A stretch of DNA of 48,158 bases from Oscillospiraceae bacterium. GTDB lineage: Bacteria > Bacillota > Clostridia > Oscillospirales > Oscillospiraceae. Shown here piece after piece: positions 10,808 through 46,745 of the stretch (position 1 is its first letter; each line of letters begins with the position of its first letter). The translations under genes and the position numbers were made by a program. The stretch covers positions 1 to 48,158 of the forward strand of contig JAFODZ010000052.1 of NCBI GenBank assembly GCA_017380435.1. Direction: 5' to 3'. Below the pieces are notes generated by a model that did no database searches, was not told where the DNA came from, and saw nothing but the letters and a program-made list of their open reading frames with translations.

Positions 10808-10922
10808 GAGCCTCCCCTTGTAGGGGAGGTGGGTCGCCGTAAGGCGAGCCGAAGGGGTTTGCGGAGGCTCTGTTCACCCCTCAGTCACCTTCGGTGACAG
10901 CTCCCCTGCAAGGGGAGCCTTT
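10808..10922. repeat. Gene-less copy of the two-armed palindromic element (copy 3)
   Basis: The left arm (10808-10857) holds hairpins CCTCCCCT/AGGGGAGG and TCGCC/GGCGA. The right arm (10876-10922, 47 bp) holds GTCACC-TTC-GGTGAC and GCTCCCCT/AGGGGAGC. The right arm matches the arm at 45933-45979 in length and layout, with base changes in the stems that keep pairing. It lies between the YcxB-like and DUF523 genes and may also end DUF523 transcription. It is interpreted as a MITE-like derivative of the DUF559 element near 45.5 kb. Confidence 0.7.
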
Positions 10923-45251: not shown

Positions 45252-45417
45252 AATCTCATTCCTTAGATGTTATTACCGGTGTTATCTCCCGGTAAGTCAT
45301 CTTATGTGCTGCTCCTTAATTATGACACAATTCTTATCCCTACAGTTTATATTAATCGACAAAATACATCAAATCCCTTTACCGTCCCAAGCTGGCGCAC
45401 CCCAACCAGTTCCCCAG

Positions 45418-45507
45418 CGATTACTTTTTTAGTGCTTTGGCGGAGTTGGTGCTGGATAATTGAAAATTTATTGTATCTGTGATATAATCAGTTCGATAAA
45501 CTTGAAT
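45418..45507 (+). promoter_or_regulatory. Promoter segment duplicated at 46656-46745 (copy 1)
   Basis: Contains TTGAAA (45460-45465), 17-base spacer, TATAAT (45483-45488). The ~90 bases around it match those before the S51-like gene (TTGGCGGAGTT ... CTGGA ... ATTGAAAA ... GTGATA-AATCA ... AACTTGAAT). Here it lies upstream of the DUF559 gene. Confidence 0.75.
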
Positions 45508-45511
45508 AGGC

Positions 45512-45998
45512 CTAACAGTTACGCACCGCACCAAAGGCCCCCTCTGACGAGGGGGCTGGCACCGAAGGTGACTGGGGGAGAGAAAATGAAAGAGTACAAC
45601 AAAGAAAATATCCCCTTGGCCAAAACTCTTAGAAAAAATATGACACCATGGGAGCGTAAACTATGGTATGAATTTCTAAGAAGTTACCCAATAAGGTTTC
45701 AACGGCAAAAAGCAATTGGGAATTATATCGTTGATTTTTATTGTGCGAAGATTGGACTGGTCGTTGAACTGGATGGCGGTGGACACTATACCCCTGAGCA
45801 AGCAGAAAAAGATAATCTTCGCACAAAAGATTTAGAGAGCATGAAACTGACGGTTATCAGAATCTGTAATTTGGATATTGACCGCAACTTTCGCGGTGTA
45901 TGCGAATACATAGATTTGACTGTTAATAATCTCTCCCTCAGTCAGCTTCGCTGACAGCTCCCTCATCAGAGGGAGCCTTGGGCGCTGTAAGCGCCAGT
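45512..45998 (+). mobile_element. DUF559 endonuclease element with inverted two-hairpin arms
   Basis: The left arm 45534-45580 and right arm 45933-45979 are each 47 bp and inverted relative to each other (about 40 of 47 positions agree). Each has a long hairpin (GCCCCCTC/GAGGGGGC; GCTCCCTC/GAGGGAGC) and a shorter one (CACC-GAA-GGTG; GTCAGC-TTC-GCTGAC). Outer flanks are CTAACAGTT ... GCACCGCACCA on the left and the GGCGC/GCGCC hairpin on the right, shared with the next copy. The left arm supplies the gene's ribosome site GGGGGAG and the right arm its last codons and stop. Element status and boundaries are inferred. Confidence 0.65.
45586..45954 (+). CDS. DUF559 (Vsr-like, PD-(D/E)XK) endonuclease domain protein
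   Basis: A 122-residue single-domain protein of the DUF559 family, related to very-short-patch repair endonucleases. Visible: KNMTPWERKLWYEFLRSYP with the N-terminal Glu, FQRQKAIGNYIVDFYCAKIG with the active-site Asp, VVELDGGGHY with the E-x-D pair, and TVIRICNLDID with the late Asn. DNA nicking or cutting is the expected activity. The ATG at 45586 is placed by GGGGGAG five bases upstream, within the left palindromic arm. The last residues (SLSQLR) are read from the right arm. It is driven by the promoter at 45460-45488. No methylase or RAYT-like gene is near. Confidence 0.88.
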   Translation: MKEYNKENIPLAKTLRKNMTPWERKLWYEFLRSYPIRFQRQKAIGNYIVDFYCAKIGLVVELDGGGHYTPEQAEKDNLRTKDLESMKLTVIRICNLDIDRNFRGVCEYIDLTVNNLSLSQLR

Positions 45999-46017
45999 GC
46001 GCAAAACCTGAATTTAT

Positions 46018-46174
46018 CTAACAGTTGTGCACCGCACCAAAGGCCCCCTCTGACGAGGGGGCTGGCAAAAATCTTTGATTTTTGACTGGGGGAGAGAATA
46101 CTACCCCTCAGTCACGCTTGGTAAGCGTGACAGCTCCCCTGACAAGGGGAGCCTTGGGCGCCGTAAGCGCCAGT
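46018..46174. mobile_element. Gene-less, MITE-like copy of the DUF559 element (copy 2)
   Basis: The same outer flank as copy 1 (CTAACAGTT ... GCACCGCACCA), then left arm 46040-46094, a spacer of eight bases, right arm 46103-46155, and the closing GGCGC/GCGCC hairpin (46157-46171). The short hairpins differ in sequence but still pair (CAAAAATC-TTT-GATTTTTG on the left; GTCACGCTT-GGT-AAGCGTGAC on the right). It starts 19 bases after copy 1 ends. No gene lies within. Confidence 0.7.
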
Positions 46175-46206: not shown

Positions 46207-46542
46207 ATGACAAATACTGAATTAAACGAAGAACTAGTTAATTCAAAATTTGATGAATTAGATTTGATGATAAATGAATATAATTTTATTGATTGTAATA
46301 AAATTATCGAAAAATATAATTATTTTCTCCGCTGTCTTACCTATGTAACTCGACTTGAAGAAGGCAATATGCTCGTCAAATCCAAAAACAAAAAATACAA
46401 AATTTCATATCTTAAAACAATTTTGGATAATGATGGTCCTGAGTATGCTTTAACAATAGGATTTTATAACCCATTCAAAAGCAATGTGATCTACGAGATT
46501 GGTGTTTGCGTGAGAGGAACTCCTTTGCTCAAAAAGTTGTAA
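46207..46542 (+). CDS. Hypothetical protein, AT-rich orphan
   Basis: 111 residues, no signal peptide or membrane helix. The first half is acidic and helical (ELNEELVNSKFDELDLMINE), the second basic then mixed (MLVKSKNKKYKISYL). GAGGAG lies 7 bases before the ATG at 46207. Base composition is much more AT-rich than the starch locus, which suggests transfer. It sits between copy 2 of the palindromic element and a 79-bp repeat. No family is recognised; an immunity or phage-type small protein is possible but unsupported. Confidence 0.6.
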   Translation: MTNTELNEELVNSKFDELDLMINEYNFIDCNKIIEKYNYFLRCLTYVTRLEEGNMLVKSKNKKYKISYLKTILDNDGPEYALTIGFYNPFKSNVIYEIGVCVRGTPLLKKL

Positions 46543-46631: not shown

Positions 46632-46655
46632 CTCATCTTGTGTGGTACCGTCGTT

Positions 46656-46745
46656 GATTGCGTTTTTGTGCCTTGGCGGAGTTAATACTGGAAGATTGAA
46701 AAATTGTTATGTTTGTGATACAATCATTTCGGAAAACTTGAATTT
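46656..46745 (+). promoter_or_regulatory. Promoter segment duplicated from 45418-45507 (copy 2)
   Basis: TTGAAA (46696-46701), 17-base spacer, TACAAT (46719-46724), upstream of the S51-like gene. It resembles the segment before the DUF559 gene, although the genes are unrelated. Confidence 0.75.

Follow-up and report, generated by a model that had tools for sequence, protein, structure and literature searches.

Background

In RAYT/REP systems (REP-associated tyrosine transposases with repetitive extragenic palindromes; BIME, REPIN), a mobile-type gene lies beside its own dispersed hairpin repeats, which also form gene-less inverted doublets. The BoxC/PIT/TM repeats have been known from E. coli since the 1990s, according to Holder et al. 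2015 (PMC4666352), where Hoyne et al. 2000 is cited; that paper counts 23 copies in MG1655, including five inverted pairs that always join type A with type B, reports triplex formation by the motif in vitro (circular dichroism and nuclear magnetic resonance, for TMECO) and states that its authors came across no mobility functions near these repeats in E. coli. Here we describe a locus in a stretch of 48,158 nucleotides from an Oscillospiraceae bacterium (GCA_017380435.1, contig JAFODZ010000052.1, positions 1 to 48,158; 'the window' denotes this whole stretch), where a DUF559 nuclease gene is enclosed by two inverted arms with the BoxC/TM layout of a C-rich strand, a Watson-Crick-paired purine strand and a mirror purine third strand.

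The window arms resemble BoxC/PIT/TM in that a third, G-rich strand mirrors the purine strand of a hairpin, in the inverted pairing of two different types and in the many intergenic copies. They differ in that a hairpin replaces the second loop, which is short in those repeats (3 nt in TMECO, 1-6 nt in ITxF), and in the nuclease gene between the arms. Like RAYT/REP, the window system joins one mobile-type gene to dispersed hairpin repeats and gene-less inverted doublets, but the gene is of the DUF559 type (PD-(D/E)XK, Vsr-like) rather than an HUH Y1 transposase, and the arms have a triplex-type tail and no GTAG tag. The small inverted-repeat copies that lack a gene, beside a longer copy that has one, also recall miniature inverted-repeat transposable elements (MITEs), although the enzyme encoded here is not a DDE transposase, nor was any target duplication found. 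EDxHD (Vsr-like) homing endonucleases are related to the window protein at profile level; unlike them, the window gene is bracketed by repeats present at many sites. Among the open-licence papers listed by literature searches, none was found to pair DUF559 with triplex-type repeats.

Results

Structure of the element and its gene-less copies

The DUF559 gene (Pfam PF04480 and profile matches) occupies positions 45586-45954 of the forward strand, with 122 codons plus a stop. It is preceded by a left arm at ~45536-45578 (forward strand; from sequence and arm finder) and runs into an inverted right arm at ~45934-45978 (reverse strand; from sequence and arm finding), which contains its last codons and, within hairpin 2, its TGA (45952-45954). 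The ATG at 45586 stands shortly after the G-rich tail of the left arm, which by eye is likely to be the ribosome site of the gene. An earlier note on this DNA had described the gene as taking its ribosome site and stop from its inverted arms, and the sequence bears this out for the stop and, in all likelihood, for the ribosome site. Just downstream, again as noted earlier, stands a gene-less copy at ~46042-46153, with a left arm at ~46042-46092 (forward strand; sequence and arm finder) and a right arm at ~46104-46153 (reverse strand; sequence and strict arm pattern). The third copy, also gene-less and noted before at 10808-10922, was placed at ~10810-10920 (left arm ~10810-10857, forward strand, by sequence comparison; right arm ~10876-10920, reverse strand, by DNA matches and strict arm pattern). 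Of the earlier description of two 47-bp arms, the inverted flanking arms stand, and the fixed length does not: arms range from roughly 40 to 60 bp, and partners often belong to different types, as detailed below.

The genome from which the window derives (G000; the assembly is 59% complete) holds 33 DNA matches to the region, itself counted. A strict arm pattern gave 44 matches in its 1.28 Mb, compared with 0 for the same pattern read backwards; the arm matches are not due to chance. This incomplete sequence yielded three DUF559 genes, each of them enclosed by arms. One gene-less copy (L020) consists of a DUF559 gene minus its middle, with the remnant still visible between the arms. At two further copies (L007 and L024) the right arm is interrupted by inserted, similar further repeats of ~80 bp.

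A mirror rule in the arms

Each arm reads, from 5' to 3', as hairpin 1 (pyrimidine 5' strand, purine 3' strand), a second hairpin and a purine tail, and this tail mirrors the purine strand of its own hairpin 1. A first arm finder set no condition on three positions, namely the bases X and Y that close hairpin 1 and the base Z ahead of the tail; its 48 arms had the X-Y-Z combinations G-C-T (24), C-G-G (16), T-A-A (6) and C-G-A (2). A second finder required a 5-base mirror and left the positions beyond it free, yielding 238 distinct arms at 116 loci. These free positions follow G-G, A-A and C-T, and where the first outward Watson-Crick-paired C occurred past the required bases, the tail carried T in 105 of 109 cases. 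In the code of the purine-motif (reverse-Hoogsteen) triplex, G and A of the purine strand are each matched by the same base and C is matched by T (the T.C-G part); the change from C to T in the tail is what such a triplex would need. As single-stranded DNA, an arm looks able to fold into a hairpin with the G-rich tail as the mirror of its purine strand, arranged as in an intrastrand purine-motif triplex. This mirror tail of putative intrastrand-triplex type, overlooked by the earlier note, links the arms to BoxC/PIT and to E. coli ycjD.

Watson-Crick pairing between the tails of partner arms was considered as another source of the rule. Among 39 distinct inward-facing arm pairs, found with a stricter frame, 29 consisted of two arms of different sequence type, and in 57 of the 58 arms of these heterotypic pairs the tail base went with its own arm, and in none (0 of 58) with the partner, which rules out tail-to-tail pairing as the explanation.

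At the foot of hairpin 1, a G stands opposite T in 171 of the 238 arms, and an A opposite T in 20. Vsr nicks a T.G mismatch, and the G.T apposition may be reminiscent of this target. Longer element ends, proposed from outer flanks common to four copies of one subfamily, were dropped, as other copies have the arms alone in common.

The DUF559 protein

The 122-aa product matched PF04480 (DUF559) with an E-value of 6.9e-26, and its nearest named relatives, among the matches listed, were mostly from gut Clostridia/Oscillospiraceae assemblies. In the PDB, a profile built from 22 relatives matched 3hrl, titled 'Endonuclease-Like Protein', at E 8e-25, and 3r3p, titled 'Mobile intron protein' and corresponding to I-Bth0305I, at E 0.0013; the other 20 profile matches had E-values of at least 0.2 and were taken as chance. 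Invariant columns among the 22 relatives include E23, D50, E61, D63, G64 and H67. For one orthologous pair, between G000 and its relative G367, the proportion of differing sites was 0.17 at nonsynonymous positions (pN) and 0.78 at synonymous ones (pS), which indicates that the protein is kept by purifying selection. G367 also has many matches to the subfamily of the third copy, perhaps a recent burst. Kosinski et al. 2005 (PMC1189080) assign YcjD of E. coli to the PD-(D/E)XK group and give Vsr as a match at profile level.

DUF559 genes and arms recur together

Our sample of DUF559 loci in named genomes numbered 79 (from the best 80 matches of a contig scan, mostly close to the window's protein), of which 77 were testable for flanking repeats. 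Flanks were inverted repeats of each other at a score of at least 30 in 42 of the 77, compared with 1 of 462 control windows; controls were drawn from within the same loci because a cross-locus control, in which the upstream side of one locus was paired with the downstream side of a second, was contaminated by arms common to several loci. Under a strict triplex score (at least 7 triplets within 200 bp of DUF559), motifs were found at 50/77 of these loci (controls 2/231), at 20 of the 30 loci tested in the window's family (32 in all; controls 3/90) and at 22 of the 22 tested in Enterobacteriaceae (24 in all; controls 6/66). Eight plasmid and phage loci, a set without control windows, were picked for taxonomic spread from 36 plasmid and two phage records with flanks unseen beforehand, and 4/8 had motifs under the same score. 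By eye, similarly built motifs were present at the remaining four (Picosynechococcus, Pseudanabaena, N. gonorrhoeae and phage), those of N. gonorrhoeae being decayed and in direct, not inverted, order, and the phage locus having one clear arm. On two plasmids of Synechocystis sp. B12 (L225, L232), DUF559 and BoxC-like arms apparently lie inside or beside split DUF1156/PglX-like methyltransferase genes.

Similar arms flank DUF559 genes in cyanobacteria, Deinococcus and Sphingomonas, and are present in Bifidobacterium biavatii, where the DUF559 protein is 64% identical. Second loops of 3 nt adjoin DUF559 in Enterobacteriaceae, Deinococcus and Pseudanabaena. The recurrence of DUF559 together with triplex-type repeats in such distant bacteria points to a possible, so far unrecognised class of mobile DNA.

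Arm abundance was compared across 101 genomes of the window's family, mostly metagenomic assemblies and some of them incomplete, in tallies that ignore phylogeny; the strict arm pattern covers CTCCC arms only, and other subfamilies escape it. DUF559 was found in 28/101 genomes, with at most 4 matches in one genome. Five or more strict arms occurred in 17/26 genomes with DUF559 at E 1e-8 or better, compared with 8/75 of the others (p = 2e-7), and the reversed pattern gave 3 matches across all 101. A genome of the same genus that is 99% complete (G049) has no DUF559 and two arms. The earlier note had been concerned that arms might be widespread without DUF559, or DUF559 orthologues usually without arms; arm abundance tracks DUF559, with exceptions in both directions, and the majority of tested loci have arms, so that neither concern overturned its proposal.

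Presence and absence at orthologous sites

Two spacers between genes, with gene names assigned by eye, were followed across relatives. For the folD-type spacer, which adjoins a folD-like gene, 121 genomes were searched, 109 had a match, and the 30 best-matching loci were compared, including that of G000, which carries one of its DUF559 elements there. A DUF559 element was present at 2 of the 30, a gene-less two-arm element at 5, a partial element at 1, a lone hairpin 1 at 3 and no arm at 19; 11 of these 19 arm-free spacers were only 15-43 nt long. At the infB-rbfA spacer, where G000 has a gene-less element, one of 18 comparators had a two-arm element of another type, one a lone hairpin 1 and 16 none. 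Orthologous spacers thus vary between the element with its DUF559 gene, the form without a gene, a hairpin on its own and an empty state, which gives good support to mobility of the unit.

Lone hairpins of G128 (folD-type) and G154 (infB-rbfA) combine the ends of two different arm types, with a mismatch between them. We read these as probable scars from loss of the inside of a two-arm element, though they may have arisen by mutation of a simple palindrome.

E. coli ycjD and BoxC in Enterobacteriaceae

The ycjD gene of K-12 is annotated as DUF559, and inspection by eye shows a decayed BoxC overlapping the end of its coding sequence; a perfect BoxC ~170 bp beyond it is number 9 in Table 1 of Holder et al. 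2015 (PMC4666352). Across 5426 E. coli genomes, ycjD was present in 3365, at a median of 1 place per genome and a maximum of 2. An IS1 insertion splits ycjD in E. coli ETEC6 (L168).

We searched 198 genomes around an E. coli reference, with a DUF559 cut-off of E 1e-12 or better. DUF559 was found in 26, the BoxC motif in 37 and the reversed motif in none (0 matches). In genomes of at least 3 Mb (a hand-made list of 124), five or more BoxC motifs were present in 21/26 with DUF559 compared with 5/98 without (p = 1e-14, a value that overstates independence, the genomes being related); over all 198 genomes the figures were 21/26 and 5/172. An exact BoxC lay at +318 to +334, counted from where the DUF559 match starts, i.e. 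at or beside the 3' end of the gene, in 12 of 27 enterobacterial loci, and somewhere in the stretch in 16 of the 27, on the 3' side every time.

Neighbouring sequences in the window

Similar promoter-like stretches, at 45395-45500 and 46640-46745, flank the pair of elements as if duplicated (by eye), and the elements follow only the first of them. Directly after the gene-less copy, a 111-codon reading frame (46207-46542) has no Pfam match at E 0.001.

Discussion

We lean towards regarding the unit as a small mobile element that consists of one DUF559 nuclease gene between two inverted arms, together with gene-less derivatives, and that would be spread by its nuclease. This keeps part of the earlier note's proposal of a hairpin-ended element mobilised by its endonuclease with MITE-like derivatives: the association, the gene-less and deleted copies and the presence/absence at orthologous sites stand, while the nuclease as mover, acting in trans, is what we infer. 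Both the role of DUF559 as driver and the manner of movement are likewise conjectural. A single-stranded arm would fold into a hairpin plus a third strand, and the DUF559 protein would recognise the folded arm on exposed single strands, e.g. the lagging strand, with the G.T apposition at the foot of hairpin 1 possibly part of the recognition. The protein would then cut at the folded arm, and host repair of the cut would copy or delete the unit and, in trans, its gene-less relatives. In Enterobacteriaceae, the gene would have turned into a single-copy locus beside BoxC, as RAYT genes lie beside REPs. More tentatively, and with somewhat less than even confidence, we propose that DUF559 proteins may be the enzymes, so far missing, that mobilise intrastrand-triplex repeats across bacteria, that is, non-HUH, non-DDE nucleases which would recognise a three-stranded single-strand fold and spread their own gene plus gene-less copies, including E. 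coli BoxC.

Several observations weigh against this account. We know of no covalent transposition chemistry for PD-(D/E)XK nucleases. The strict score found no triplex motif at 27/77 named-genome loci, 10/30 loci of the window's family and 4/8 plasmid and phage loci. Within that family, 9/26 genomes with DUF559 have fewer than five arms, and the 8/75 with five or more carry no DUF559 at the cut-off used. Among Enterobacteriaceae, 5/26 genomes with DUF559 have no BoxC, the 5/98 with at least five motifs lack DUF559 at the cut-off used, and the exact motif was seen on the 3' side only, so that the gene sits beside, not between, arms. No target-site duplication was recognised at the folD-type and infB-rbfA spacers or at two aligned E. 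coli sites, the spacers being too diverged to exclude one. For the E. coli sites, five BoxC-pair loci of MG1655 were considered, three were searched in 5,426 genomes and eight other-strain alleles were taken; the two loci aligned showed no clean empty site, junction or duplication, because the alleles were partial deletions or replaced spacers. A different neighbour gene set the third locus (L223, L224) apart from the two that were aligned. Hence, where the earlier note had asked for presence/absence with clean junctions, the former was found at orthologous sites, and the E. coli junctions are not clean and show no target duplication. Nor does the ycjD locus offer a clean site: in two strains without ycjD its place is taken by a TetR plus RND operon, given as eefRABCD in the available text of PMC12817139. 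Finally, dimethyl sulphate footprinting showed no stable triplex in vivo, according to Holder et al. (PMC4666352).

The best-surviving alternative is homing, in which a free-standing DUF559 endonuclease would cut gene-less arms and recombination through arm homology would copy the gene in, the repeats themselves spreading otherwise. The citation of DUF559 as an EDxHD homing family in the text of PMC9403480, the profile match to the mobile intron protein 3r3p, the abundance of gene-less two-arm copies as targets and the occupation of the same spacer by different repeat subfamilies are all consistent with it. Homing leaves unexplained, however, why repeat abundance tracks the presence of DUF559 and why gene-less two-arm elements occur in spacers that are bare in relatives, and we regard it as unlikely, although to be taken seriously.

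A role in host defence or repair seems less probable still. DUF559 would here clear triplex or hairpin blocks and so be kept by repeat-rich genomes, the flanking arms being due to chance or regulatory. The single-copy state of ycjD in E. coli would fit, as would the requirement for the Caulobacter DUF559 protein VsrA in the SOS response of scmA mutants, described in the text of PMC12907096. Set against this are the placing of the gene exactly between arms again and again, the presence of up to 4 DUF559 matches per genome, the deleted derivative L020 between arms and the plasmid and phage DUF559 copies with arms.

That the arms are mobilised by a Y1 transposase of RAYT type, with DUF559 as a passenger, we consider very improbable. 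G000 does have two weak, RAYT-like Y1_Tnp matches (L083, G000:C15:7234-7470, and L084, G000:C9:16741-17112), yet both genes carry a GTAGGGG-type REP, and no DUF559-type arm was seen in 1.3 kb around each. GTAGGGG-type REPs also occur within the reading frame of these genes and form a second repeat system in G000. The view that the arms are ordinary terminator-like hairpins, their association with DUF559 reflecting a bias of intergenic GC-rich sequence, accords with the largely intergenic position of the arms read but is strongly disfavoured, to the point of being scarcely credible, by the control windows in the same loci (1/462, and the triplex-score controls), by the reversed patterns (0 in 198 genomes, 3 matches in 101 genomes) and by a mirror rule that no RNA hairpin needs.

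As of Holder et al. (2015; PMC4666352), BoxC/PIT/TM repeats were still without a known mobiliser, and the link to DUF559, a widespread family that includes YcjD of E. coli, gives a testable question in K-12. If the mechanism proposed here is true, the element would represent a class of mobile DNA in which both the type of enzyme and the kind of end that it recognises, a three-stranded fold, are new. It would also account for variation driven by repeats in gut Clostridia, enterobacteria and cyanobacteria.
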